From Agromyces tardus (GTDB lineage: Bacteria > Actinomycetota > Actinomycetes > Actinomycetales > Microbacteriaceae), in contig NZ_RHHB01000002.1 of NCBI RefSeq assembly GCF_003710805.1, positions 186,001 through 250,000 on the forward strand: DNA of 64,000 bases. The letters run 5' to 3'. This document shows positions 544-40,896 of the stretch, piece by piece. The position numbers were made by a program, and so were the translations under genes. Every line of letters begins with the position of its first letter. The stretch's first letter is position 1. Below the pieces are notes generated by a model. It was not told the origin of the DNA. It was given only the letters and a program-made list of their open reading frames with translations, and searched no databases.

Positions 544-1724
544 GCCGCCACCTCGATCGATCGCAGCCACTTCGTCTGCATGACCCCCGGCCGGCCGGGT
601 GCGATCACGCGGGCGGGGTAGCCGTGGTCGACGTGCAGCACCGAACCGTTGAGCTCGAGTGCGATGAGGGTGAGCGGATCCCGGGCGTACTCGGGCGGCA
701 TCTCGGTGCGAGCGAAGCTCCCACGCGTCTGGAGGCTCGTGAACACGAGCGGCGTCGTCGGCTCGGCCCCCACCTCCGCCAGCAGGTCGACGAGGCGCAC
801 GCCGCGCCACGAGGCCGACTGGCTCCAGCCCTCCACGCACGCGATCGGCAGCACGACGTCGGCCTGCGGCATCCGTCGCAGCTCCTCGAGCGAGAACGCT
901 CGCGAGCCGGCCGGCGTGACGAGCTCGAGCGACCAGCCCGGCGCGACCGCGGTCTCGGTCACGCCTGCCTGCGCGGCAGTGCGATTGACCGGCAGCCCCT
1001 GCGGGCCCACGCCCATGCGGCGGGGTGCGAACACGTTGAACGGGGAGAGCGCGTCGACCGACTGCCCGGCGGTGAGCAGCACGGCGGAGGCGGTGGCGGC
1101 GGTGACCCCGCCGACGAAGGCTCGGCGCGAGACGAAGCGCCCCGCGGCATCCGGATCGTCGCGGGCCGGCCGCCGCCAGAGCCGCGCGATCACGGGAAGC
1201 TTGACGCCGATGTGGATCGCCAGGCTGCCGATCGCGATCCAGGCGAGCGCGAAGTGCGTCGAGCGGAACGAGAACGGGAACGGGTACCACTGCACGATGT
1301 TGAGCAGGCCGATCGTCACCTCGACGAGCGAGACGCCGACGAGCACCGCGATCGACACGCGCTCGAGCAGGTTCGGGAGCGAGCGAACGGGCGGCCACGT
1401 GAAGAGCGCGGGATAGACCGTCCAGAGCTTCCCGAGCAGCAGGGGCACCGACGCGATACCCGAGATCACGTGCAGGCCCTGCGTGAACCGGTAGAGCTCG
1501 GCGGGTCGCGTCGGCAGCGGAATCCACGGCAACGGGTCCTGGAGCAGGTGGCTGTAGAGCCCCGTGGCGAAGCACACGAGGAACGCCGCGGCGAGCAGCC
1601 GGCCGATGACGACGGCCGAGCGCTCGGACTTCACGGGGTCGGCGGCCGCGTCGCGCGCGCGCCGCACGCCGGGCTCGAGCCGGGCGGCGAGCCGCGCCGA
1701 GACGCGTGCGGTGAGGTCGGCCAT
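540..1724 (-). CDS. Membrane-anchored molybdopterin-dependent oxidoreductase (sulfite oxidase-like fold)
   Basis: This 394-residue protein has two parts. Residues about 35-185 form a four-helix cytochrome b561-like membrane domain with several histidines suitable as haem ligands. Residues about 240-394 form a molybdopterin-binding domain of the sulfite oxidase/YedY type, with CVEGWS as the expected Cys ligand of molybdenum. A segment near 195-215 beginning with paired arginines (SRRAFVGG) resembles a twin-arginine-type transfer sequence between the halves, which would put the Mo domain outside the membrane. Known relatives pass electrons between a small substrate (sulfite, methionine sulfoxide or unknown) and the quinone pool. 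The substrate cannot be told from sequence. It is coupled to the downstream membrane protein gene. Confidence 0.85.
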   Translation of the reverse strand: MADLTARVSARLAARLEPGVRRARDAAADPVKSERSAVVIGRLLAAAFLVCFATGLYSHLLQDPLPWIPLPTRPAELYRFTQGLHVISGIASVPLLLGKLWTVYPALFTWPPVRSLPNLLERVSIAVLVGVSLVEVTIGLLNIVQWYPFPFSFRSTHFALAWIAIGSLAIHIGVKLPVIARLWRRPARDDPDAAGRFVSRRAFVGGVTAATASAVLLTAGQSVDALSPFNVFAPRRMGVGPQGLPVNRTAAQAGVTETAVAPGWSLELVTPAGSRAFSLEELRRMPQADVVLPIACVEGWSQSASWRGVRLVDLLAEVGAEPTTPLVFTSLQTRGSFARTEMPPEYARDPLTLIALELNGSVLHVDHGYPARVIAPGRPGVMQTKWLRSIEVAA

Positions 1725-1767
1725 GAGTCCAGTCGAGCACTCGGCACCCGACGATGCAGCCGCCAGT

Positions 1768-1845
1768 CCTTACGGTTCGCGAACGGGCGGCCCCGGGGCC
1801 GCGACGGGCGGATGTCGCGACCGCCGCCGTTCGCGTTCCGTAAGG
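1768..1845. repeat. Imperfect long inverted repeat in a divergent promoter region
   Basis: CCTTACGG at 1768-1775 is matched by CCGTAAGG at 1838-1845. The pairing continues inward through CGCGAACGG and CCGTTCGCG with two mismatches and one bulged base. It lies between the divergent oxidoreductase (start 1724) and membrane protein (start 1968) genes, so it could be an operator or a cruciform-forming regulatory site. No protein can be assigned to it. Confidence 0.5.
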
Positions 1846-1967
1846 TTTCACGGGCTCCGCTGCGGCATCCTCGTCCGTAGTCTCGCAACAGCGGGCCTCC
1901 CGCAGGCCGGCACGGTCGACTCGCGCCCGTCCCGCGCCCGCGCACCGACCCAGCCACGAGGAGCGGC

Positions 1968-3314
1968 ATGAACGTCGAGACCGACACCGCGCGCGAGCGC
2001 ACGCGTGCGCCGGCGATCGGGCTCGGCGTGGCCGTCGCGCTCATCGTGCTCGCCGTCGCCCTGCCGCCGCTCCTCGGCTGGAACGTGCACGTGCGGTCGT
2101 TCCCGCCGCTGCATGCCGAGTGGCTGCCGCGCGTCGGGCCGGGAACGCTGCCGGCCGTCGCGCTCGCCGTGTGCGCCGCCGTGTACGGAGTGGACGTCGC
2201 CGCCCGCGCGCGCTGGCGGTGGCTCCTGGCGGGGAGTTGCGTCGTCGGTGCCGCATGGCTTGCGAGCCTCGCGACGGTCGACGGGCTCGACGGCATCGGC
2301 GTCATCCTCGATACGCCCTACGAGTACCTGGAGACGGCACGGGCCGTCACCGACTTCCCGGCCACCCTGCGCGAGTACGTCTCGCGGATCCCCCTCGACG
2401 CGCCCCACAACTGGCCCGTGCACCTCGCCGGGCATCCGCCGGGCGCCCTGCTCTTCTTCGTCGTGCTCGTGCAACTCGGGCTCGGCAGCGGCCTCGCCGC
2501 GGGATTCGTGGTGCTCCTCGTCGGGGCCACGACGCCCGTCGCCGTGCTGCTGCTGCTGCGCCGGCTCGACGCCGAGGAGTGGGCGCGCCGGGCGGCGCCG
2601 TTCCTCGTGATGGGCTCGGCGGCGATCTGGATGGCGGTGTCGGCAGACGGCATGTTCGCCGCGTTCGCCGCGTGGGGCCTGTGCGCCCTCGGGTATTCGG
2701 CGACCGCGGGAACGCGAGGGGCGACGGCCGCCTGGGGAGTCGCGGCGGGCCTGCTGCTCGGGTACTGCGTGATGTTGTCCTACGGACTTCCGTTGCTCGG
2801 GATCCTCGCGCTCGCCGTGCTGCTCATCGCGCGCACGTGGCAGCCGCTGCCGTGGGCGGTCGGGGCAGCGCTCGCCGTCGTGCTCGCGTTCGCCGCCCTC
2901 GGGTTCGCCTGGTGGGAGGCGTACCCCGTGCTCGTCGACCGCTACTGGGACGGCATCGCGAGCCGGCGGCCGGCGGCGTACTGGGTGTGGGGCGACCTCG
3001 CGGCGCTGGCCGTGAGTGCGGGACCCATGGTCGGCCCGGCGGTCGCGATGGCGCTGCAGCGCGGCATCCGACTGCGACGTCTCGAGGCCGGCGAGCGCGT
3101 GATCGTGCTGCTCGCCCTCGCGGCCGTGCTCACGGTACTGCTCGCCGACCTCTCGCAGATGAGCAAGGCGGAGGTGGAGCGCATCTGGCTGCCGTTCGTG
3201 CCGTGGCTGCTGCTCGGCACGGCGCTGCTGCCCGAGCGTTGGCGCCGCGCCGGGTTCGCCGGACAGCTCGGCTTCGCGCTCCTCGTGCAGCACCTGCTCG
3301 CCACCGGATGGTGA
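1968..3314 (+). CDS. Polytopic membrane protein, GT-C glycosyltransferase-like, unknown substrate
   Basis: A 448-residue protein with roughly ten membrane segments. A long first external loop follows the first helix and includes the polar stretch HNWPVHLAGHPPGALL (about residues 145-160). This is the layout of GT-C fold mannosyl/arabinosyltransferase-like actinobacterial membrane proteins, which use polyprenyl-phosphate sugars at the outer membrane face. I see no clear paired acidic catalytic motif, so the enzyme activity is uncertain. The start is supported by GAGGAG four bases upstream. It is transcribed divergently from the molybdoenzyme and ends in a convergent terminator shared with the next gene. 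Confidence 0.7.
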   Translation: MNVETDTARERTRAPAIGLGVAVALIVLAVALPPLLGWNVHVRSFPPLHAEWLPRVGPGTLPAVALAVCAAVYGVDVAARARWRWLLAGSCVVGAAWLASLATVDGLDGIGVILDTPYEYLETARAVTDFPATLREYVSRIPLDAPHNWPVHLAGHPPGALLFFVVLVQLGLGSGLAAGFVVLLVGATTPVAVLLLLRRLDAEEWARRAAPFLVMGSAAIWMAVSADGMFAAFAAWGLCALGYSATAGTRGATAAWGVAAGLLLGYCVMLSYGLPLLGILALAVLLIARTWQPLPWAVGAALAVVLAFAALGFAWWEAYPVLVDRYWDGIASRRPAAYWVWGDLAALAVSAGPMVGPAVAMALQRGIRLRRLEAGERVIVLLALAAVLTVLLADLSQMSKAEVERIWLPFVPWLLLGTALLPERWRRAGFAGQLGFALLVQHLLATGW

Positions 3315-3392
3315 CCTCCGTCGTGCCGGTGCTGCGGATGCCGCGTGCGAGCCGCTCGTCTCGGGCGACTGCACGCGGCATCCGTCAGGTCA
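3312..3392. terminator. Bidirectional terminator hairpin between convergent genes
   Basis: A perfect 14-bp stem (3335-3348 with 3371-3384) is made of CGGATGCCGCGTGC and its complement, with outer arms TGACCT/AGGTCA at 3312-3317 and 3387-3392. It sits between two genes that converge here; the outer right arm overlaps the stop codon of the minus-strand gene. The stem is built from the GGATGCCGC word common across the window. Confidence 0.65.
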
Positions 3393-5000
3393 CTTCAGGA
3401 ACTTGAACAGCGCGGAATGCGTCGTCCCATCGTTGAGCTTCAGTGCGAAGGTGCCGCACTTGCCCGCCCACGACTTCTCGGTCTTCCAGACGTAGACGTA
3501 CTGGCCCGCGACCGGGTCGTAGCTCAGGCTGCTGCCGCCCGCGGTGATCGTCGTCTCGATCGCGTCGATCGTCGCGCTCGCGTTGCAGGACGTGAACGTG
3601 ATCGTCGGTGAGCCAGCGGCCAGGATGTCGAGGCCCTGATCTCCGTCGAGGCCGAACTTGATCGGCACCGCGCTGCCGGCCTTCGCCGAGTTCACCACGT
3701 TGCCCATGTCGACCGGCCGGAAGAACCCGGCGAAATCGTAGATCACCGAGTAGGTGCAGGAATCAGCAATGGATTCGTTGCCGGCCGCATCCCACACCGT
3801 CCCGGCCGGCACCGTCGCCGTCTTGCTTCCGACGCTGCTCGTCGCGAGCGCCACCGATCCGCTCGACGGGGAATCGTCGGCGATGCCAGATCCCGGTGAC
3901 GGGTCGTAGGCGGTCCACTCGGCGACTGCGCTGGATCCGAGGATCAGCGGCGAGGTCGGGCACACGAGGTCGACGACCGGCGGGGTGTTCTCCGTCACGA
4001 AGTACTCGCACGTCACCTCTGCCGATCCATTGCCGGCGAGGTCCTTCGCTGTGCCGGCCGGGGCCGTCGCGGTGGCAGGGCCGTAGCTCGACGTGTCCAA
4101 ATCGATGGACCCGCTGGAGGGCTCGGCGATGCCGGACCCGCCGGCCTCGTCGGTCGCCACCCATGTCGCCTCTGCGCTCGAGCCCAGCAGCACGTCCTCG
4201 TCAGGGCACGTGAGCACGACCACCGGCGGCGTCTTCTCGGTCACGAAGTAGGCGCACGTGGCTTCCGCGGACTCGTTCCCGGCGATGTCCTTCGCTGTTC
4301 CGACCGGTGCGGTGGCGGTCGCTGCGCCGTAACTCGACGTGTCCAGCTCGATGGAGCCGCTCGACGGCTCCGCGATGCCGGACCCGCCCACCTCGTCGGT
4401 AGCGACCCACGTGGCGTACGCCGTCGATCCGCGCAGCACCTCCTCGGTGGGACAGGTGACCACAACGACCGGGACGGTCTCATCGGGCACCACCACCTCG
4501 CAGTCGACGATCTCCCACGACACGGTGACGTCCTTCGTGGTCGAGAACGCAGCGCTCGAGGTGTTGGTGCCGGCCACCTTGTACGTGACCTTCGAGGTGT
4601 AGGTGCCCTCCACCGAGCCCCCCACGGTGATCTCGGAGTCCGACGGAGTGCTGAAGATGTTGTTGCTGGCCACCCAGTTCCCGGGAAGCGCCGCCGTCGA
4701 GGGCGCAGGCTGGGTGGCGACGGCGCCCGCGTCGCCCGTCGTCGGGAGCACCGAGAAGGTGACGGTGCTCGAGTTCGCGAAGACGTTGCCCGAGTTCACA
4801 TTGCCGTTGCGCTTCGCTGCGAGGCTCACGGTCGCGGTGTCCTGTTCACCGCACGCGATCGGTCCGAAGTCGATCGAGCTCACCTCCACGTCGAGCTCGT
4901 CAGTGAGGAAGAGGCTGTCCGCATACGCAATGCCGCCCCCGCCCAGGATCAGGGCGGCCGCTGTGGCCGCTCCAGCTATCGACATTCCCCAGCGCTTCAT
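3390..5000 (-). CDS. Secreted repeat protein with C-terminal PxKF domain
   Basis: The precursor has an N-terminal signal peptide (cut near AYA-D, about residue 30), an Ig-like domain (30-175), three tandem modules of about 81 residues (roughly 180-261, 262-343 and 344-424, counted from the upstream ATG), and a PxKF-type C-terminal domain carrying AVPIKFGLDG. Each module opens with VxCP and contains GSGIA, TATxPAGT and DxAGNxS, resembling bacterial Ig/HYR-like adhesive modules. Modules 1 and 2 are nearly identical, indicating recent duplication. Two ATGs are possible: I prefer 5000, with GGGGGA (5007-5012) at good spacing, over 5006, which abuts it. It is probably a cell-surface or matrix protein; its binding partner is unknown. 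No LPXTG anchor is present. Confidence 0.8.
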   Translation of the reverse strand: MKRWGMSIAGAATAAALILGGGGIAYADSLFLTDELDVEVSSIDFGPIACGEQDTATVSLAAKRNGNVNSGNVFANSSTVTFSVLPTTGDAGAVATQPAPSTAALPGNWVASNNIFSTPSDSEITVGGSVEGTYTSKVTYKVAGTNTSSAAFSTTKDVTVSWEIVDCEVVVPDETVPVVVVTCPTEEVLRGSTAYATWVATDEVGGSGIAEPSSGSIELDTSSYGAATATAPVGTAKDIAGNESAEATCAYFVTEKTPPVVVLTCPDEDVLLGSSAEATWVATDEAGGSGIAEPSSGSIDLDTSSYGPATATAPAGTAKDLAGNGSAEVTCEYFVTENTPPVVDLVCPTSPLILGSSAVAEWTAYDPSPGSGIADDSPSSGSVALATSSVGSKTATVPAGTVWDAAGNESIADSCTYSVIYDFAGFFRPVDMGNVVNSAKAGSAVPIKFGLDGDQGLDILAAGSPTITFTSCNASATIDAIETTITAGGSSLSYDPVAGQYVYVWKTEKSWAGKCGTFALKLNDGTTHSALFKFLK

Positions 5001-5028
5001 CAGCATTCCCCCATCGGACCATTTGATT

Positions 5029-5059
5029 CGTGTGCATGCACACGGTGAGTCCTCACCGT
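5029..5059. promoter_or_regulatory. Overlapping palindromes upstream of the PxKF gene
   Basis: CGTGTGCATGCACACG (5029-5044) is a perfect 16-bp palindrome. It runs directly into ACGGTGAG-TC-CTCACCGT (5042-5059), a perfect 8-bp hairpin. Both lie 23-60 bases upstream of the PxKF gene start, where an operator or leader structure would be expected. No regulator can be named. Confidence 0.5.
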
Positions 5060-5150
5060 ACGGGGTTGCGTCAGGGCGGGGTGAGCCCCCGTATGAGTGC
5101 CAGACGTCCGGGTGGCCGGGCGATCCGGACTCGCGACTGGGCCGCCCGCT

Positions 5151-5879
5151 TCAGTCCATCGCGACGGAGGCTGCGGGCTGGATCTCAGTCGGGACCGTGG
5201 CCGAGTCCGCCGGCGAACTCGGCTCGCCCGGGTCGGCGTCGAGGTCGACGATGCCGCGGAGGTAGACCTCGAGCTCCTCGGCCATGTCGACGCTGTCGCG
5301 GTCGAGGAGCCACTGCACCTGCAGGCCGTCCATCATGGCCACGGTCGCGCGCGCCGCGCTGTCGGGGCTGACCCCGGGCCGCAGCGCCCCGCGCTCGGCG
5401 GCACGCCCGAAGGTGTTCGCGAGGCTTCCGACCGTGAAGCGGTAACGGCGCACGAAGTAGTCGTGCGCGGGGTGGTCGGGCGTCGTGGCCTCTGCCGACA
5501 GCGTGCAGTAGAGCTCGACGACGCCGGGCACGGAGGCGTTGTAGCGCGCGAGCTCGACGAGTCCGCGCAGCGTCTGCAGGGGGTCGGGGCCGTCGATGGG
5601 GGCCAGCTCGAGCGAGTGCTGGTCGCGCAGGTCGAGCACCTCGGCCAGGAGCGCGCTCTTGGTCGGGAAGTGGTGGAGGAGACCGGCCTCGCTCATGCCC
5701 ACGGCCTCGGCGATCTCGCGGATCGACCCCGAGCGGTAGCCGCCCTTGGCGAAGACGGCGAGCGCGGCTTCGAGGATCGCCTCGCGGGTCTTGCGGGTCT
5801 TGGCGTAGGCGCCCCGGGGGCGCCCTCGGCCGCGCGGCTTCGGCGCCGCATCCGGCGTCGCATCGGTCGTGTCGGTCAT
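5151..5879 (-). CDS. TetR-family transcriptional regulator
   Basis: A 242-residue protein with a basic N-terminal arm (GRGRPRGAYAKTRKTR), a TetR helix-turn-helix at about 30-75 (IREIAEAVGMSEAGLLHHFPTK) and a helical ligand-binding C-terminal domain with an acidic tail. The start at 5879 is chosen because GGGAGGTGAG precedes it; an upstream in-frame ATG at 6017 lies inside the candidate operator and is unlikely. It is divergent from the oligosaccharide transporter operon, and two matching palindromes lie between them, so it is probably the operon's repressor. TetR control of a sugar operon is less usual than LacI control, and the inducer is unknown. Confidence 0.85.
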   Translation of the reverse strand: MTDTTDATPDAAPKPRGRGRPRGAYAKTRKTREAILEAALAVFAKGGYRSGSIREIAEAVGMSEAGLLHHFPTKSALLAEVLDLRDQHSLELAPIDGPDPLQTLRGLVELARYNASVPGVVELYCTLSAEATTPDHPAHDYFVRRYRFTVGSLANTFGRAAERGALRPGVSPDSAARATVAMMDGLQVQWLLDRDSVDMAEELEVYLRGIVDLDADPGEPSSPADSATVPTEIQPAASVAMD

Positions 5880-6005
5880 CCCTCTCACCTCCCGTGGATT
5901 CGCCGTCGAGCCTAGTCGGTGGCCGCACCGCACCGGACGGAGGTCTCCGTTTCGGGCGGATGCTGCGGCGTCCTCTTTCCATCGTGGCACCCGCTGAAAC
6001 AAAAA

Positions 6006-15445: not shown

Positions 15446-17209
15446 ATGTTCGACCGCTCCTCCACGTTCGGCGATGCCCTCGACGACGACGCCGCCCGTG
15501 CGGTGCTCGAGACGTTCCTGCCGGGCATCGCGGCCTCGCCCATGGCCGGCCAGTTCCGCGGTGCCCGGCTGGGGCAGCTCATCGCGATCTCGCCCGCGCT
15601 GCGCGAGGACGAGGCGGAGCAGGACAGGTTCTGGGCGGCGCTCGCCGAGGTGCCCGGTGACGGCGAGGTCACGCCCCGCGAGTACTCCCCGGCGATCGCG
15701 CCCGACCCGGCGTACGAGGGCGACGACGTGACCCGTGCGTCCGCCCGTGTCACAATGCCGTCGGTGCCGGTCGAGCGCTGGGGCGTCGTCGAGCTGCGGT
15801 TCGACGGGCCGAGTCACGGCAACCCGTTCGTCGACGTCGAGCTGGGCGCTCGCGTCACGCACGGCGACCGCGCCTTCCACATCGGCGGGTTCTACGACGG
15901 CGACGGCACGTACCGCATCCGGTTCCTCGCCGAGCGCGAGGGGGAGTGGCACTTCGAGACGACGTCGACGGCGCGCTCGCTCGACGGACTGTCGGGCGCG
16001 GTGCAGGTCGGCCCCGCGGCATCCGGAAGCCATGGTCCCGTGCGGGTCGACGGACTGCACTTCGCACACGCCGACGGCACCCGCTACCGACCGGTCGGCA
16101 CGACCGCGTACGCGTGGACGCACCAACCCGAGGAGCTGCAGCAGCGCACGCTCGGGGCGCTCGCGGAGTCGCCGTTCAACAAGATGCGCATGTGCCTCTT
16201 CCCGAAGTCGTACCTCTACAACGCGAACGAGCCCGAGCGGTTCCCGTTCCCCGGCTCGCTCGCCGACGGCTTCGACCTCGCGCGGTTCGATCCCGCATAC
16301 TTCCATGAGCTCGAGGGGCGCGTCGCCGAGCTCGCGGGGCTCGGGATCGAGGCCGACCTGATCCTCTTCCACGCGTACGACCGCTGGGGGTTCGCCGACC
16401 TCGGACCGGCGGTCGACGACCGGCTCATCCGGTACGTCGTGCGCCGGCTGGCGGCATCCGCCAACGTGTGGTGGGCGCTCGCCAACGAGTACGACCTCGT
16501 GTGGGCGAAGACCACCGCCGACTGGGAGCGCATCGCGGCGATCATCGAGGAGGAGGACCCGCACGGGCACCTTCGCTCCATCCACAACTGCCACGGCTTC
16601 TACGATCAGACCCGCCCGTGGATCACGCACGTGAGCGCGCAGCGCATCGACGTCTACCGCACCGCCGAGAACACCGACGCGTGGCGCAGCCAGTACGGCA
16701 AGCCCGTGGTCATCGACGAGGTGGGCTACGAGGGCGACATCGACCAGGGCTGGGGCAACCTCACGGGCGAGGAGCTCGTTCGGCGCTGCTGGGAGGGCGC
16801 GGTGCGCGGCGGCTACGTCGCCCACGGCGAAACCTACCTCAACGACCGCGAGGAGCTGTGGTGGTCGAAGGGCGGCGAGCTCATCGGCACGAGCCCGGCG
16901 CGCATGGGATTCCTCGACGGCATCGTCGCCGAGGCGCCCGGCGGCGTGCTCGACCCGCTCCCGTCGGACTGGGACGTGCCGTGGGGCGGCGTCGCCGGCG
17001 AGTACCTCATCGCGTACTTCGGGTTCAACCGGCCGAGCTTCCGCAGCATCGTGCTGCCCGACGGTTCGTTCGAGATCGACGTGATCGACACGTGGAACAT
17101 GACGGTGGAGCCCGTGCCGGGCGTGCACCGCGGGGCCGTGCGCGTGGAGCTGCCCGCGCGGCAGTACATGGCGGTACGGGCGCGGCGGGTGACGCCGTCG
17201 GTCGAGTAG
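15446..17209 (+). CDS. Putative glycoside hydrolase, DUF5060/DUF4038/DUF5605-like
   Basis: A 587-residue cytoplasmic protein. After a helical N-terminus (1-90) come a beta-sandwich of the DUF5060 kind (about 105-180, ERWGVVELRF...FHIGGFYDGDGTYRIRF), a TIM-barrel of the DUF4038 kind (about 200-480) and a small C-terminal beta domain (about 500-587, DUF5605-like). WWALANEYDL and VVIDEVGYEGD fit the acid/base and nucleophile of a retaining clan GH-A enzyme. Characterised DUF4038 relatives include apiosidases; the substrate here is unknown. The last gene of the xylan-type operon, it has AAAGG upstream of the ATG. Its final codons and TAG lie inside a palindromic repeat (17196-17225). Confidence 0.72.
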   Translation: MFDRSSTFGDALDDDAARAVLETFLPGIAASPMAGQFRGARLGQLIAISPALREDEAEQDRFWAALAEVPGDGEVTPREYSPAIAPDPAYEGDDVTRASARVTMPSVPVERWGVVELRFDGPSHGNPFVDVELGARVTHGDRAFHIGGFYDGDGTYRIRFLAEREGEWHFETTSTARSLDGLSGAVQVGPAASGSHGPVRVDGLHFAHADGTRYRPVGTTAYAWTHQPEELQQRTLGALAESPFNKMRMCLFPKSYLYNANEPERFPFPGSLADGFDLARFDPAYFHELEGRVAELAGLGIEADLILFHAYDRWGFADLGPAVDDRLIRYVVRRLAASANVWWALANEYDLVWAKTTADWERIAAIIEEEDPHGHLRSIHNCHGFYDQTRPWITHVSAQRIDVYRTAENTDAWRSQYGKPVVIDEVGYEGDIDQGWGNLTGEELVRRCWEGAVRGGYVAHGETYLNDREELWWSKGGELIGTSPARMGFLDGIVAEAPGGVLDPLPSDWDVPWGGVAGEYLIAYFGFNRPSFRSIVLPDGSFEIDVIDTWNMTVEPVPGVHRGAVRVELPARQYMAVRARRVTPSVE

Positions 17210-17394
17210 GCGCGCAGCGGTGCAGCGTCGGTCGAGTAGGCGCGCAGCGGTGCAGCGTCGGTCGAGTAGGCGCGCAGCGCCGTATCGAGACCATCCGGCG
17301 GCCGGGTCCCCGGGCCTCGATACGCTCGCCGGCGCTCGCTACTCGACCGGCGGGGCGACGCGGGCCTCGATACGCTCGCCGGCGCTCGCTACTC
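17196..17394. repeat. Cluster of palindromic repeat elements, REP-like
   Basis: A 30-bp unit beginning CGTCGGTCGAGTAGG is repeated at 17196, 17226 and 17256, the last running into CGTATCGAGACC. Two inverted copies follow, each CTCGATACGCTCGCCGGCG followed by CTCGCTACTCGA (about 17317-17347 and 17366-17396). Direct and inverted copies can fold into long hairpins. The first copy supplies the TAG stop of the upstream hydrolase gene. This cluster fills the first part of a 384-bp gene gap. Confidence 0.85.
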
Positions 17395-17425
17395 GAGGGC
17401 GGGCGGTGGCGGCATGCGCCGGGGG

Positions 17426-24874: not shown

Positions 24875-25546
24875 ATGAGCGGATACGCGAACCCCGATCA
24901 GCCCGAGCAGCGACTCAGCGACGCCGAGCGGGAGGCCGCCGTGGCGCAGCTCGCCGTGGCCCGTGCCGAGGGGCGCCTCACGTCCGCCGAGTACGACCAA
25001 CGAGCCACGGCGGCGCAAGCGGCGCTGACTCGCGCGGACCTCGTGCCGCTCTTCGAGGACCTGCCGGAGACGACGGCGGCGCCTCCGCGGGTCGCGGCCT
25101 ACTCGACGACGGCGACGGCGCCACCCGCCGCCACCGTCGCCGAGGCGTCGACGCCGCGCCCCTCGCGGGCGCTCGGGGGCCGCATCGGCGACACGATCAT
25201 GGGCGTGACGCCGTTCCTCGCGGTGGCCCTGTTCTTCATCACGGGGTTCCAGGTCAGCTTCATGTGGGCCTGGCTGTGGTTCCTGCTGATCCCGATCGTC
25301 GGCATCATCATCTACGGTCCCGGTCGCCGGAACGAGCCCGAGGAGCCGACCCGCCCGTCCCGAGCGCTCGGCGGTCGCATCGGCGACACGATCATGGCGC
25401 TGACCCCGTTCCTCGCCGTCGCCCTCTTCTTCCTCACCGGCTTCAACGGCAGCTTCGCCTGGTCATGGCTGTGGTTCCTGATCATCCCGGTGACCGCGAT
25501 CATCATCTACGGCCCGGGGGGCGGCGGGCGCCGCGGGCGCGACTGA
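24875..25546 (+). CDS. DUF1707-type membrane protein with duplicated transmembrane module
   Basis: A 223-residue protein. Residues about 12-60 form a DUF1707 (SHOCT-like) domain: LSDAEREAAVAQLAVARAEGRLTSAEYDQRATAA. After a low-complexity linker come two near-identical 55-residue modules (96-150 and 161-215), each PSRALGGRIGDTIM plus two membrane helices and ending IIIYGPG. The duplication is also clear in DNA (25160-25324 and 25355-25519). DUF1707 proteins are common in actinobacteria, but the role is unknown. It is divergent from lldR across the LldR operators. No ribosome binding site is evident before ATG 24875. Confidence 0.75.
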   Translation: MSGYANPDQPEQRLSDAEREAAVAQLAVARAEGRLTSAEYDQRATAAQAALTRADLVPLFEDLPETTAAPPRVAAYSTTATAPPAATVAEASTPRPSRALGGRIGDTIMGVTPFLAVALFFITGFQVSFMWAWLWFLLIPIVGIIIYGPGRRNEPEEPTRPSRALGGRIGDTIMALTPFLAVALFFLTGFNGSFAWSWLWFLIIPVTAIIIYGPGGGGRRGRD

Positions 25547-36026: not shown

Positions 36027-38059
36027 CGCAGGAACGCCGCCGCGACGCCCGCGTCGACGGGGATGTGCAGCCCGGTGGTGTGGCTGAGCTCGGGCCCGGT
36101 GAGCACGATGACCGCGTTGGCGACGTGCTCGGGGAGCACCTCGCGCTTGAGGATCGTGCGCTGGGCGTAGAACTTGCCGAGGTCCTCCTCCTCGATGCCG
36201 TACGTCTTGGCGCGGTTCGCGCCCCAGCCGGAGGCGAAGATGCCAGAGCCCCGCACGACGCCGTCGGGGTTGATGCCGTTGACCTTGATGCCGTACTCGC
36301 CGAGCTCGACGGCGAGGAGGCGCACCTGGTGCGCCTGGTCGGCCTTCGTCGCCGAGTAGGCGATGTTGTTCGGTCCGGCGAACACCGAGTTCTTCGACGA
36401 GATGTAGATGATGTCGCCGCCGAGGCCCTGGTCGATGAGCACGCGGGCGGCGGCCTTCGACACGAGGAAGGAGCCCTTCGCCATGACGTCGTGCTGCAGG
36501 TCCCAGTCGGCCTCGGTGGTCTCGAGCAGGGGCTTCGAGAGCGAGAGTCCCGCGTTGTTCACGACGAGGTCGAGTCCGCCGAAGGCGAGCACGGCGTCGT
36601 CGATCGCGGCCTGCACGGCCGCCGCATCCGTCACGTTCGCCTGCACGCCGATCGCGACATCCGTCGACCCGAGCTCGGCCGCCGCGGCCTGCGCCTTCTC
36701 CAGGTCGAGGTCGGCGATCACGACGCACGCGCCCTCGGCCGCGAGGCGGGTGGCGATGGCCTTGCCGATGCCGGATGCCGCGCCCGTGACGAGCGCGATC
36801 CGCGTCGCGTGCGGCTTGGGCTCGGGCATGCGCTGGAGCTTCGCCTCCTCGAGCGCCCAGTACTCGATGCGGAACTTCTCGGCGTCGCTGATGGGGGAGT
36901 ACGTCGACAGCGCCTCCGCCCCGCGCATCACGTTGATGGCGTTGATGTAGAACTCGCCGGCCACGCGGGCGGTCTGCTTGTTCGCGCCGTACGAGAACAT
37001 GCCCACGCCCGGCACGAGCACGATGAGCGGGTCGGCGCCGCGGATCGCCGGCGACGCGGCATCCGCGTGCGCGTCGTAGTACGCCTGGTAGTCGGCGCGG
37101 TAGGCCTCGTGCAGCTCCTTCAGGCGCGCGATGGATGCCTCGATGCCGGCGTCGGCCGGCAGGTCGAGCACCATCGGCTTCACCTTGGTGCGCAGGAAGT
37201 GGTCGGGGCAGCTCGTGCCGAGCGCCGCCAGCCGCGGGTGCTCGCTGCTCGCGAGGAAGTCGAGCACCTCGGGGGCGTCCGTGAAGTGGCCGACCATGGG
37301 CTTGTCGTGGGATGCGAGGCCGCGGATCGTGGGGGCGAGGGCGGCGGCCTTCGCACGGCGCTCGGCGGGCTCGAGCGGCCCGTAACCGGACAGTGCGGAA
37401 CCGAACGGGTCGGCCTTGCCGTGCTCGGCGATGTACGCGGCGGCGGTGTCGATGATCCAGAGCGAGTTGCGCTCCGACTCCGCGCTCGTGTCGCCCCACG
37501 CGGTGATGCCGTGGCCGCCGAGGATGCAGCCGATCGCCTGCGGGTTCGCCGCCTTGATCTCGGCGATGTCGAGACCGAGCTGGAAGCCGGGACGCCGCCA
37601 GGGTACCCAGACGACCCGGTCGCCGAAGATCTTCGCCGTGAGCTCCTCGCCGTCGGCCGCCGTCGCGATCGCGATGCCCGAGTCGGGGTGCAGGTGGTCG
37701 ACGTGCGCCGCGTCGACGAGCCCGTGCATGGCCGTGTCGATCGAGGGGGCCGCGCCGCCCTTGCCGTGCAGGGTGTAGTCGAACGCGGCGACCATCTCGT
37801 CCTCGCGGTCGACGCCCGGGTAGACGTCGACGAGCGCGCGCAGCCGGTCCAGTCGAAGCACCGCGAGGCCCGCCTCGGTGAGGGTGCCCAGGTCGCCGCC
37901 CGAGCCCTTCACCCACAGCAGCTCGACGGGCTCGCCCGTGACCGGGTCGGTCTCGGTGCCCTTGGCCGACGTGTTGCCGCCGGCGTAGTTCGTGTTCCTG
38001 GGGTCGGCGCCGAGGCGGTTCGACCGCGCGATGAGGTCGACAGCAGCCTGGTTCGTCAT
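36023..38059 (-). CDS. rhaD: Bifunctional rhamnulose-1-phosphate aldolase / lactaldehyde dehydrogenase
   Basis: A 678-residue fusion. Residues about 1-410 are a class II aldolase with the zinc-binding pair in HVDHLHPDS (His122, His124); residues about 420-678 are a short-chain dehydrogenase with TGAASGIG (425-432), Ser555, Tyr568 and Lys572. In known homologues the first half cleaves L-rhamnulose-1-phosphate to DHAP and L-lactaldehyde and the second oxidises lactaldehyde to L-lactate. The gene is coupled by ATGA overlaps both to the esterase upstream and to the kinase downstream. Cytoplasmic. Confidence 0.93.
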   Translation of the reverse strand: MTNQAAVDLIARSNRLGADPRNTNYAGGNTSAKGTETDPVTGEPVELLWVKGSGGDLGTLTEAGLAVLRLDRLRALVDVYPGVDREDEMVAAFDYTLHGKGGAAPSIDTAMHGLVDAAHVDHLHPDSGIAIATAADGEELTAKIFGDRVVWVPWRRPGFQLGLDIAEIKAANPQAIGCILGGHGITAWGDTSAESERNSLWIIDTAAAYIAEHGKADPFGSALSGYGPLEPAERRAKAAALAPTIRGLASHDKPMVGHFTDAPEVLDFLASSEHPRLAALGTSCPDHFLRTKVKPMVLDLPADAGIEASIARLKELHEAYRADYQAYYDAHADAASPAIRGADPLIVLVPGVGMFSYGANKQTARVAGEFYINAINVMRGAEALSTYSPISDAEKFRIEYWALEEAKLQRMPEPKPHATRIALVTGAASGIGKAIATRLAAEGACVVIADLDLEKAQAAAAELGSTDVAIGVQANVTDAAAVQAAIDDAVLAFGGLDLVVNNAGLSLSKPLLETTEADWDLQHDVMAKGSFLVSKAAARVLIDQGLGGDIIYISSKNSVFAGPNNIAYSATKADQAHQVRLLAVELGEYGIKVNGINPDGVVRGSGIFASGWGANRAKTYGIEEEDLGKFYAQRTILKREVLPEHVANAVIVLTGPELSHTTGLHIPVDAGVAAAFLR

Positions 38060-39213
38060 GAGGGGATTCCTTCGTTGGTGCGGAGGGTGGTCAGGTGGTC
38101 GGATGTCGCCGGTCGAGTAGGGCGCTCAGCGCCCGCGCCCGCCGGTCGAGTAGGGCGCTCAGCGCCCGTATCGAGACCCGACAGCCCGTCGATCCAGCGC
38201 ACGACGCGCTCGATCGAGGCGGATGCCGCGGGCCCATCCGGCCGGTTCAGGTGTCCGTGCTCGGTGCCAGCCTCGGTCGAGAGCTCGAGCGACACGCCCG
38301 CCTCGACGAGCGTCGCGGCGAACACCTCGCCCGAGACGCGGAGCTCGTCGGCCTCGCCGTTGATCATGAGCACGGGCGGGAATCCCACGACGTCGGATGC
38401 CGCGGCCCGGCCGGGCACGGCCGGAAGCGGCGCATCGTCGACGGGGCCGCCGAGGTAGGCCTCGTACATGCTGCGAACGCGGTCGGGACCGAAGCGGTCG
38501 GCGTCGGGATTCGCGTCGAGGAGCGCCCGCAGCGCGGCATCCGGTGCCGGCTGCACGGCGAGCAGGGTCGGGTAGGCGAGGAACACGCCCGCGGGCGATT
38601 CCGCCGGTCGAGCAGGGCGCGCAGCGCCCGCCCCCTCCGCCGGTCGAGTAGGGCGCGCAGCGCCCGTACCCTCCGCCGGTCGAGTAGGGCGCGCAGCGCC
38701 CGTATCGAGACCCGGGGCGCTGGTCTCGATACGCTCGCCGGCGCTCGCTACTCGACCGGCGGGGTCGCTGGCGCTCGCTACTCGACCGGCGGGGTGGGTC
38801 GCGATACGCGGCCCCGCCGCTCCTCGATCGGCGGGGCGCAGCAGCCGCAGCACGGCGCCCGCGACGAGGTTCGCGCCCGCGCTCGCCCCGCCCAGCGCCA
38901 GGCGGTCGCGGTCGACGCCGAGCTCCTCGGCGTGCGCGAGCGTCCAGCGCCAGGCAGCGAGCACGTCGTCGGACACCGCGGGGTAGCGGCATCCGTCGCC
39001 GACGAGCCGGTAGTCGACCGAGACGACCGTGACGCCGCGGGCAGCGAGGGAGCGCGCGACCCAGTCCGCCTCGGGCATGTCGAGGTCGCCCGCGGCGAAG
39101 CCGCCGCCGTGCGCCCAGACGAGGCCCGGCGTCGGGCGCGCGGCCGCGGCATCCGCCGGGTACACCCGTACGAGTCCCTCCGCTGCGCCGTACGGCTCGG
39201 TCGACTGCGTCAT
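38056..39213 (-). CDS. Alpha/beta-hydrolase (HSL-type esterase) with palindromic repeats translated inside it
   Basis: A 385-residue esterase of the hormone-sensitive-lipase type: HGGG oxyanion motif (35-38), nucleophile GGASAG (Ser111), acid Asp289 (GEADELR) and His319/321 (TEHGHL). A family core of about 280 residues is interrupted at about 130-208 by a low-complexity stretch (GERIETSAP, GLDTGAARPTRPA and repeats). A related tail (346-370, GLDTGAERPTRPA) follows the last core helix. Both come from palindromic repeats (38601-38837 and 38108-38176) and preserve the frame. The insert lies between the nucleophile region and the FLAYPTLL strand, where a loop might tolerate it. Within the rhamnose operon the enzyme may remove acetyl groups from rhamnosides. 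ATGA overlaps rhaD. Confidence 0.82.
   Translation of the reverse strand: MTQSTEPYGAAEGLVRVYPADAAAARPTPGLVWAHGGGFAAGDLDMPEADWVARSLAARGVTVVSVDYRLVGDGCRYPAVSDDVLAAWRWTLAHAEELGVDRDRLALGGASAGANLVAGAVLRLLRPADRGAAGPRIATHPAGRVASASDPAGRVASAGERIETSAPGLDTGAARPTRPAEGTGAARPTRPAEGAGAARPARPAESPAGVFLAYPTLLAVQPAPDAALRALLDANPDADRFGPDRVRSMYEAYLGGPVDDAPLPAVPGRAAASDVVGFPPVLMINGEADELRVSGEVFAATLVEAGVSLELSTEAGTEHGHLNRPDGPAASASIERVVRWIDGLSGLDTGAERPTRPAGAGAERPTRPATSDHLTTLRTNEGIPS
38108..38176. repeat. Palindromic repeat copies encoding the esterase C-terminal tail
   Basis: Two direct copies of a 33-bp unit starting GCCGGTCGAGTAGGGCGC begin at 38108 and 38141, the second running into GTATCGAGACC. A 33-bp period is 11 codons, so the esterase frame is kept (peptide PTRPAGAGAER). 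Confidence 0.88.
38601..38837. repeat. Cluster of palindromic repeats inside the esterase gene
   Basis: Three direct 36-bp copies beginning CCGCCGGTCGAG(T/C)AGGGCG start at 38601, 38637 and 38673, the third ending in CGTATCGAGACC. Inverted copies follow: GGTCTCGATACGCTCGCCGG...TACTCGACCGGCGG (about 38722-38762), a 30-bp partial copy (to about 38793) and a diverged copy with GCGATACGCGG and CTCGATCGGCGG (to 38837). Periods of 36 and 30 bp keep the reading frame open. Confidence 0.88.
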
Positions 39214-39217
39214 CGGC

Positions 39218-40384
39218 TCAGGCGCCCCAGCCCGCCTGCACGCCGCCGACGCGGTCGGCCGCGATCTGCTGCAGGTACCCGGATGCCGCGAACGCCGCCA
39301 TCGGGTCGGCGGGCAGGCCGCGCGACTCGCGCCACTCGGCGAGCGCCGGACGCACGTCGGTGTAGAACGCGTCCATGAACACCGCGTTGGCGGCGAGCAC
39401 GTCGCCCGACACCTGCGCGGCGCGCAGCGCCTCGGCGTCGACGAGCAGGGCCCGGGCGGTCATCTCCTGCACGTTGAGCACGGAGCGGATCTGGCCGGGG
39501 ATCTTGTCCTCGACGTTGTGGCACTGGTCGAGCATGAAGGCGACGTCGGGGTTGTTGAGCCCGCCGCCGCGGGCGACCTCGAAGAGGATGCGGAACAGCT
39601 GGAACGGGTCGGCCGCGCCCACGATGAGGTCGTCGTCGGCGTAGAAGCGGGAGTTGAAGTCGAACGAGCCGAGCTTGCCCAGGCGCAGGAGCTGCATGAC
39701 GATGAACTCGATGTTCGTGCCGGGGGCGTGGTGGCCGGTGTCGAGGCAGACCATCGCCTTGTCGCCGAGGGTCGAGACCTGGGCGTAGCTCGTGCCCCAG
39801 TCGGGAACGTCGGTGTGGTAGAACGCGGGCTCGAAGAACTTGTACTCGAGCACGAGGCGCTGGTCGTCGCCGAGGCGTTCGTAGATCGTTCGCAGCGACT
39901 CGTTGAGGCGGTCCTGGCGGCCGCGCAGGTCGGCCTGTCCGGGGTAGTTCGAGCCCTCGGCGAGCCAGATCTTCAGGTCGCGGCTGCCGGTCGCGTGCAT
40001 GATGTCGATGCACTCGAAGTGGTGGTCGATGGCCTTCCGTCGCACGGCCGCGTCTTCGTGGGTGAGGGCGCCGAACTTGTAGTCGTCGTCCTGGAAGGTG
40101 TTCGAGTTGATCGTGCCGAGGGCGACGCCGAGGTCTTCGGCGTGCTTGCGCAGCACGTCGTAGTCCTCGACCTTGTCCCACGGGATGTGCAGCGCCACGG
40201 TCGGCGCGAGCGCGGTGTACGTGTTGACCTGCGCGGCATCCGCGATCTTCTCGAACGGGTCGCGCGGGGTGCCGGGGGTGCCGAACACCTTGAAACGGGT
40301 GCCCGAGTTGCCGAACGCCCAGCTCGGCAGTTCGATGGCCTGGAGCTCGAGCTCGCTGAGGACGGTGTCGGGAAGGGTGCTCAC
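39218..40384 (-). CDS. rhaI: L-rhamnose isomerase (RhaI type)
   Basis: A 388-residue TIM-barrel, metal-dependent isomerase converting L-rhamnose to L-rhamnulose. It belongs to the Rhizobium/Pseudomonas-type isomerases, not the E. coli RhaA type. Metal ligands are visible as Glu in LEYKFFEPAFYHTDVPDWG, Asp/His in MVCLDTGHHAPGTNIE and Asp in FDFNSRFYADDD. The start is GTG 40384, overlapping the mutarotase stop (GTGA). A four-base gap separates it from the esterase gene. Cytoplasmic. Confidence 0.92.
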   Translation of the reverse strand: MSTLPDTVLSELELQAIELPSWAFGNSGTRFKVFGTPGTPRDPFEKIADAAQVNTYTALAPTVALHIPWDKVEDYDVLRKHAEDLGVALGTINSNTFQDDDYKFGALTHEDAAVRRKAIDHHFECIDIMHATGSRDLKIWLAEGSNYPGQADLRGRQDRLNESLRTIYERLGDDQRLVLEYKFFEPAFYHTDVPDWGTSYAQVSTLGDKAMVCLDTGHHAPGTNIEFIVMQLLRLGKLGSFDFNSRFYADDDLIVGAADPFQLFRILFEVARGGGLNNPDVAFMLDQCHNVEDKIPGQIRSVLNVQEMTARALLVDAEALRAAQVSGDVLAANAVFMDAFYTDVRPALAEWRESRGLPADPMAAFAASGYLQQIAADRVGGVQAGWGA

Positions 40385-40896
40385 GATGCGCTGCTTTCTG
40401 TGCTGGTGGGGTCGGATGCCGCGGGGCCGGCGCCTGCGCCGGGTGCGGTGGTCTCGGGGGCGGTGGCGCCGGGTGCGGCGATGCCGGGTGCGGCGGCCTC
40501 GGGTGCGGCGGCCTCGGGGGCGGTGGCGGATGCCGCGTCGTCGCGGAGTGCAGCCAGCTGGTCCTCGAGGTGGAACACCTCGGGCAGTCGCGGGGCGCCC
40601 TGGTCGGGGCGCGCGCCGTCGAGCGCCACGAAGAACCCGGCCATCTCGGCCTCCCACGGCGCGGTGCGCGGGTCGTTCGCGAGCGACGCCTGGGCCGCCT
40701 CGTCGTCGTCGACCTCGTAGTAGCCGATGAGGAGCCCGTCGTCGCGGAGGAAGAGCGAGTAGTTGCGGCGGCCGGACGCCTCGATCGCCCGCAGCATGTC
40801 GGGCCAGACGGCGGCGTGGCGGTCGCGGTACTCCGCGAGCCGGTCGGGATCGACCTGCAGCTGGAAGCACACCCGCTCGGTGGTGCCTGTGCTCAT
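40381..40896 (-). CDS. rhaM: L-rhamnose mutarotase with an extra Ala/Pro-rich tail
   Basis: Residues 1-112 form the complete L-rhamnose mutarotase (RhaM/RhaU): His27 in YRDRHAAVWPDM, Tyr46 and the WEAEM segment are the expected active-site features. It interconverts alpha and beta L-rhamnose for the isomerase. Family members usually end near residue 104-110; here about 50 more residues follow (121-171), made of APEAA/APGIA-like repeats with a 15-bp DNA period. The tail seems to be a repeat expansion and is probably disordered. It is the first gene of the operon, with AGGAGAG before the ATG and a LacI operator immediately upstream. Confidence 0.9.
   Translation of the reverse strand: MSTGTTERVCFQLQVDPDRLAEYRDRHAAVWPDMLRAIEASGRRNYSLFLRDDGLLIGYYEVDDDEAAQASLANDPRTAPWEAEMAGFFVALDGARPDQGAPRLPEVFHLEDQLAALRDDAASATAPEAAAPEAAAPGIAAPGATAPETTAPGAGAGPAASDPTSTESSAS

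Follow-up and report, generated by a model that had tools for sequence, protein, structure and literature searches.

Rickettsia palindromic elements (RPEs), reportedly introduced by Ogata et al. in 2000, are among the described systems most like a repeat that we analyse here in the soil bacterium Agromyces tardus. The stretch examined, called the window below, comprises 64,000 nucleotides (contig NZ_RHHB01000002.1, positions 186,001 to 250,000), and in it a repetitive extragenic palindromic (REP)-type element occupies two places within an esterase gene, in frame with the coding sequence. RPEs are palindromic repeats that lie in and between genes, their intragenic copies preserving the reading frame of unrelated, conserved proteins (PMC2229807, PMC10969869); short, REP-like families are also known among RPEs (PMC3733652). 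GTAG REPs (Di Nocera et al., 2013; PMC3733652) form stem-loops with complementary stem variation, occur as dimers or clusters and lie mostly downstream of genes, the TAG of the repeat serving as stop codon of neighboring genes. In-frame intragenic copies are also reported, as dimers or groups of 20-30 aa and as clusters of 43-82 aa, for example in proteobacteria and in Opitutus terrae; the phyla given for GTAG and CGTC repeats exclude Actinobacteria (PMC3733652). REPINs, which are accompanied by RAYT transposases, are short palindromes present in many copies (PMC3116915).

The Agromyces repeat resembles RPEs in lying in frame in unrelated protein genes (19 proteins, 22 sites), but classical RPEs measure ~105-150 bp and carry one conserved peptide, whereas Agromyces units are ~30-37 bp long, form arrays and have cores of variable length. 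It also differs in its setting, the GC-rich Actinomycetota. Among RPEs, the activity of one element-bearing product (Gmk) has been tested. With GTAG REPs it shares a high copy number (84 full units), a location mainly outside genes (207 of 230 sampled clusters are not open within a gene), an arrangement in dimers and clusters, and a TAG that ends genes, at 59 of 212 gene 3' ends in the sampled clusters. GTAG REPs have an unpaired GTAG at one end of the stem-loop; in the Agromyces repeat a GTAG is present at the R end, within a longer constant arm, GGTCGAGTAG. Inserts reach ~145 aa, against clusters of 43-82 aa, and there is a preference for one codon phase, of which the parts of PMC3733652 consulted make no mention. 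The RAYT family PF01797, the sole transposase family sought, was found in none of 60 Agromyces genomes, a difference from GTAG REPs and REPINs alike. REPINs are said to occur as inverted pairs, as do the Agromyces units.

In-frame palindromic repeats are therefore a known phenomenon, represented by RPEs and GTAG REPs; the Agromyces repeat behaves like both and may be a member of the GTAG family. The original prediction knew of no such description for this repeat family. For the repeat in Agromyces and Microbacteriaceae, none was found in the literature searched, that is, in titles and abstract openings with subscription papers and preprints outside the scope, and "palindromic repeat" in the Agromyces literature, where checked, refers to CRISPR. 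The idea itself is not new, in-frame REPs in genes having been reported (PMC3733652). As far as these searches show, what is new is the phylum, the inserts of up to ~145 aa, the absence of a RAYT-type transposase (0/60) and the frame bias.

The gene in question is an open reading frame (ORF) of 385 aa with an ATG start at 38056-39213 (-), assigned to the hormone-sensitive lipase (HSL)-type esterases by Pfam (Abhydrolase_3, PF07859, E 9e-34) and with 7wol, 1lzk and others as relatives in the PDB. A 16-row alignment shows no variation at residues H35-G36-G37, S111, D289, H319 and H321, and we take their catalytic roles to be those of the HSL family, in keeping with the intact catalytic set that had been noticed at the outset. 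The repeat unit consists of GGTYTCGATAC, a self-complementary core and TACTCRACC, and spans ~30-37 bp under a strict pattern. The core has 7-21 nt, with 13 or 11 the commonest lengths among some of the stretches from the genome of the window (G000), and 15 in the esterase. By inspection of the listed places, its variation matches between both arms, as a stem-loop predicts, the ends being fixed by the pattern. Units occur alone, as tandem copies and in inverted pairs, with GTAG at their R end. Three runs in the esterase, 38601-38714 (spacing 36, 36), 38735-38794 (spacing 30) and 38106-38180 (spacing 33), bear out the periods of 36, 33 and 30 claimed earlier, as well as the claims that some 80 residues from palindromic repeats split the enzyme and that the same family codes again for its C-terminal tail. 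Both places share a signature, GLDTGAARPTRPA at residues 168-180 and GLDTGAERPTRPA at 346-358. Because the GTAG of the unit is a stop in one reverse phase, an array cannot be assumed to be open whatever the frame.

The best Pfam stretch stops at residue 126. In an AlphaFold2 model built from the shallow 16-row alignment (mean predicted local distance difference test score, pLDDT, 68), the alpha/beta core is mostly confident and the score falls below 50 at residues 128-181, 183-187, 193-198 and 349-385, as also at 1-10 and 71-78; the insert is predicted to be mostly disordered. The ratio of nonsynonymous to synonymous substitution rates (dN/dS) is below 0.4 on either side of the loop in 9/9 pairs tested. 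It is 0.10-0.31 on both sides in the clade of G007, G031 and G032, all of which carry loop units, decayed in G032, and 0.09-0.38 in insert-free pairs (n=2). Purifying selection on the esterase continues.

The genome of the window holds 211 copies of the 14-mer CTACTCGACCGGCG against 4 of a reversed control, and 84 of the full unit against 0. Within the window there are 30 repeat matches at <=2 mismatches, where 7.9 are expected. The unit is found in 34 of 60 genus genomes, with 102 copies in G017 and 89 in G058, and in 62 of 299 family genomes belonging to 29 of 85 genera. A locus from a metagenome-assembled genome that matched the insert only (L081) was rejected as a clear intragenic case, the repeat lying upstream of an ORF that we read as Maf-like.

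Stretches around listed repeat matches were taken from six genus genomes and gave 230 clusters; the intragenic fractions reported here are those of the sampled stretches rather than of whole genomes. For G000 all 84 full units and the first 100 of 211 short-motif matches were used, and for the others 20 (G017), 24 (G036), 16 (G031), 20 (G058) and 20 (G049) stretches. Flanks were scored by a codon model from 22 window ORFs, excluding the array itself together with 30 bp next to it. Coding on both sides in one frame, open across the array, was found for 23 clusters (10/77 in G000, 1/23 in G017, 4/38 in G036, 1/21 in G031, 1/35 in G058 and 6/36 in G049). One of them (L261 in G049) was dropped as doubtful because its Arg/Ser-rich reading lies upstream of the likely start, which leaves 22 sites in 19 proteins (see table). 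Fourteen of the 19 have Pfam or PDB matches that lie on both sides of the insert or run across it. Pfam matches one side only in the FHA, MGH1-like glycosidase and cytochrome c assembly proteins, and for the CoA-transferase and the glycosyltransferase the location of a second matching stretch is absent from our match table. Homologues that lack the segment exist for the part of the 19 proteins examined in this respect. Insert peptides, when sought in unrelated proteins, were found inside them, and with orthologues that lack the segment this makes the insertion of an intergenic palindrome that remains in frame, in the manner of the Rickettsia elements as proposed, the best reading. As for gene ends, ORF 15446-17209 (+), glycosidase-like by our own reading, ends in RRVTPSVE on the TAG of a repeat array, and many sampled gene ends are alike.

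Intragenic arrays keep the reading frame. Spacings between repeats of the same type are multiples of three in 39/39 intragenic cases against 188/491 elsewhere (Fisher 6e-16). In either orientation, the 5' end of the unit mostly begins with glycine, coded by GGT. For the GGTCTCGATAC end (read GLDT) this holds at 14/15 sites, and at 13/14 when the sister copy L276 is left out (p 6e-6 if one phase is named, 2e-5 if any is allowed). For the GGTCGAGTA end (GRV) it holds at 15 sites against 2 or, once L261 is dropped, at 14 against 1 (p 5e-4 for a choice between the two open phases). Where the stop of a gene precedes the unit, the phases are even (R- 28/35/35, L+ 11/12/8), so that insertion itself does not appear phase-locked; insertion locked to one codon phase was rejected on this ground. 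Where a gene ends inside an array, 65 of 76 first units of GGTCGAGTAG orientation are in stop phase.

Peptides were compared for 22 arrays, namely 21 of the 22 sites (L276 omitted) and the esterase tail. The frame in use averages a net charge of +0.02 per residue, the other two +0.19 and +0.17. Its Lys+Arg content is 13%, compared with 27% and 25%, and hydrophobic or aromatic residues make up 16% of it, compared with 27% and 20%. At least one other frame is open in 21/22 arrays. We infer a filter on the peptide as the probable cause of the frame bias.

Pattern search found the esterase in 29 of 60 genus genomes, at 30 places; a record from A. salentinus brings the set to 31 rows, 29 of which have a complete reading (L092 and L109 excluded). 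Homologues were gathered via related-locus search and DNA patterns. Named Agromyces records give the closest esterases, some of them identical, as for A. albus and G031 or A. luteolus and G049. Over the 29 rows the loop measures 9-85 aa, and it is short (9-15 residues) in 18, the insert-free orthologues with which alignment had been suggested. A REP-derived loop is present in six, clear in G000, G031, G007 and G050 and, by our own reading, decayed in G032 and G062. A REP tail occurs in four (G000, G036, G049 and G061), always in the same frame, and G062 and G067 may hold remnants of one. The loop unit of G007 reads GGFDTAASLPTQPP twice, its DNA being the form commonest among the units listed in the sister genome G031 (10/32). 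In G062 a reverse unit lies in the GTAG stop phase, but a T to G change (GGTTGAGGAG) leaves the frame open. An unrelated insert (DSAGG..., DSAGGAPAPGATPEA...) occupies the same loop in four rows (G002, G010, G064 and G036; L086, L089, L091 and L102). Its 18-nt motif is found in 5/60 genomes, G012 included, once each, and a second repeat family behind this loop was rejected because the motif is single-copy. With various inserts in the same loop, the place appears to be a tolerant one and not a specific address. Two further observations concern other rows. The loop of A. salentinus (L035) has 45 residues of neither the REP nor the DSAGG type, and the esterase tail of L086 (G002) holds another near-perfect palindrome, CGAGTGGGCGATCTTGGCG..., which does not belong to the esterase REP family.

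From sequence features, the upstream neighbor of the esterase is presumably an L-rhamnose isomerase and the downstream one of RhaD/dehydrogenase type, and by our own reading the esterase is the middle gene of a rhamnose operon. Its stop overlaps the ATG of the next gene (ATGA), so there is no intergenic gap. An ORF of 427 aa on the opposite strand (38095-39378) was rejected as a real gene: the codon model picks the esterase frame, and it matches 0 Pfam families; GC content at third codon positions is also high in its flanks, 0.88 and 0.85. At 40381-40896 (-) an ORF that we read as rhamnose-mutarotase-like has an Ala/Pro/Thr-rich tail built by 15/30-bp tandem repeats (40436-40528) of a family different from the esterase REP. 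Tandem duplications lie at 3971-4446 (246-bp units) and 25157-25517 (195-bp units), 80-82% matching.

Table. Repeat-derived features of the esterase locus (window coordinates) and other proteins with in-frame inserts (residue ranges).
Feature	Position	Strand	Remarks
HSL/Abhydrolase_3 esterase ORF with two REP-coded stretches	38056..39213	-	ORF list, Pfam, alignment
Conserved tail end TLRTNEGIPS and stop, holds GAAGGA	38056..38088	-	overlaps ATG of next gene (ATGA)
Second REP array, C-terminal tail (GLDTGAERPTRPAGAGAERPTRPA)	38106..38180	-	residues about 346-369
REP array in frame, mostly predicted disordered	38601..38837	-	residues 127-204; between helix 112-125 and strand 210-213 of the model
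Inverted pair, predicted single long mRNA hairpin	38668..38770	-	-76 kcal/mol, z -7.9
Complete unit GGTCTCGATAC-15 nt core-TACTCGACC	38678..38712	-	read GLDTGAARPTRP
Two opposite-orientation half units, 30 bp apart	38735..38794	+	read AGRVASA in esterase
Decayed reverse unit at 5' side of array (GATCGAGGAG...TATCGCGACC)	about 38797..38830	-	recognized by eye
Intergenic copies of same repeat family	17196..17396	.	TAG is stop of ORF 15446-17209
SNF2-type helicase (L169, G000:C58, ORF 2084-5956), two inserts	722 to 873 vs 80 to 86 of 1z63		~145 extra aa, between what we take to be helicase motif I and the next aligned block
HutI	59 to 90 vs 59 to 63 of 2bb0		~27 extra aa; N-terminal piece only 4.9 bits; 2gok aligns 38 to 430
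GH42	562 to 619 vs 525 to 528 of 9ta3		~54 extra aa
MenB (G031)	115 to 156 vs 119 to 131 of 1q51		~29 extra aa
LysR			238 residues cover 204 profile positions
ClpC-type ATPase gene (L273, G049; position in locus coordinates)	1226-2524		three separate in-frame repeat inserts
ABC-F			same insert in sisters G036 and G049
Aminotransferase fusion			two insert sites
Other hosts			NAD-kinase-like, MGH1-like glycosidase, FAH-RraA, CoA-transferase, FHA, glycosyltransferase, cytochrome c assembly protein, LysE, luciferase-like/FAD fusion

We consider it highly probable that a REP-type palindromic element of Microbacteriaceae lands in genes, survives there in frame and is translated as a flexible segment. 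The element would spread and multiply in tandem and inverted arrays, mostly intergenic, with some copies inserting into genes; these would survive if the frame is kept, their own TAG is avoided and the site is a surface loop, a linker or a tail, and the ribosome would then read the array into a flexible stretch of near-neutral peptide. Two such sites, loop and tail, would exist in the esterase. Judging from the sequences, the repeat is probably mobile and its arrays are probably translated into stable protein. Several points weigh against this explanation. The search for a RAYT-type (Y1) transposase in the 60 genus genomes was negative for PF01797, the only transposase family sought, with 5 of 14 control genomes positive; a mobilizer other than RAYT may be waiting to be found. 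Gene calls rest on codon usage rather than on a gene finder, and spacings within one array or sites within one protein are not independent. A further 24 clusters have the same frame on both sides and a stop inside, and may be adjacent genes or repeat-broken genes. In a looser set, in which the upstream gene runs through, the phase bias is weaker (R- 15:5, p 0.04; L+ 13:5:9, p 0.17). In the 22 arrays compared for their peptides, the frame in use is not more hydrophilic than the other two by grand average of hydropathy (-0.55 against -0.59 and -1.24). Finally, the data do not reject placing all six REP-loop rows in one clade (approximately unbiased test, p 0.26), and the loop element may have entered the esterase once and then diverged, not landing afresh in each species. 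A fault in sequencing or assembly, or decay into a pseudogene, seems very improbable, even though the genome is a draft in 91 contigs and short tandem repeats can be wrongly sized: independent assemblies carry counterparts, the frame is kept at every intragenic spacing, dN/dS is low on both sides of the loop in all nine pairs and the catalytic-set residues are intact. That the segment is a conserved folded domain, which like an assembly error had been named as refuting the original prediction, is hardly credible. It is found in a few relatives, and some PDB alignments extend ~30 residues into it (6i8d, 16-158), which we take as forced extension, but the loop varies widely in length, its pLDDT is mostly below 50 on a shallow alignment, the same peptide recurs in unrelated proteins and the best Pfam stretch ends just before it.

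A closer contest concerns the history of the esterase loop, which could be an old inherited variable loop that repeats entered once, to be homogenized later with each genome's own copies, and not a recurrent target; we give this a little less than an even chance. Trees built from the esterase core alone lacked the resolution needed for counting loop gains, and flanking operon genes were therefore added. On the resulting 30-row tree (esterase core and flanking operon codons, still weakly resolved), the REP loop takes 2 changes and the tail 3. Single entry is favored by the low count for the loop and the unrejected clade, by the clade that G007, G031 and G032 form, by the DSAGG insert with its single-copy motif in the same loop of four other genomes, and by the ABC-F insert common to G036 and G049. 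The three changes of the tail arrays speak against it, as do loop-less rows interspersed with loop rows, though many forks are open, and units that match the local family, as in G007 and its sister. It is a tentative proposal that a RAYT-independent repeat of Microbacteriaceae may act as a genome-wide supply of disordered segments, with selection keeping glycine-start, near-neutral phases and the same esterase loop and tail being re-colonized across species. Alternatively, the arrays might act as DNA or RNA, through mRNA stability, pausing or transcription end, the peptide being a tolerated by-product. The hairpin predicted for the esterase inverted pair is strong (shuffled mean -47 kcal/mol; see table), most clusters are not intragenic-open, the repeat often supplies the stop codon at gene ends, and no gap separates the esterase tail from the next gene. 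We nevertheless find such a role unlikely as the explanation, for it leaves unexplained the preferred frame, the near-neutral peptide and the inserts within SNF2, HutI, MenB and ClpC-type proteins.

So far, translated palindromes have mostly been regarded as a curiosity of Rickettsia and the GTAG/CGTC REPs of other phyla. Our findings suggest that free-living Actinomycetota have them too, some species with many sites in a single genome; translated palindromic repeats appear well supported here and more widespread than the original prediction claimed. The inserts are numerous enough to show a filter that acts on both the frame and the nature of the peptide, which makes it testable how selfish repeats turn into protein sequence and which enzyme loops take ~27-145 extra residues. 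For annotators, segments of the GLDT/AGRV type in these genomes would be recognizable as repeat-derived.

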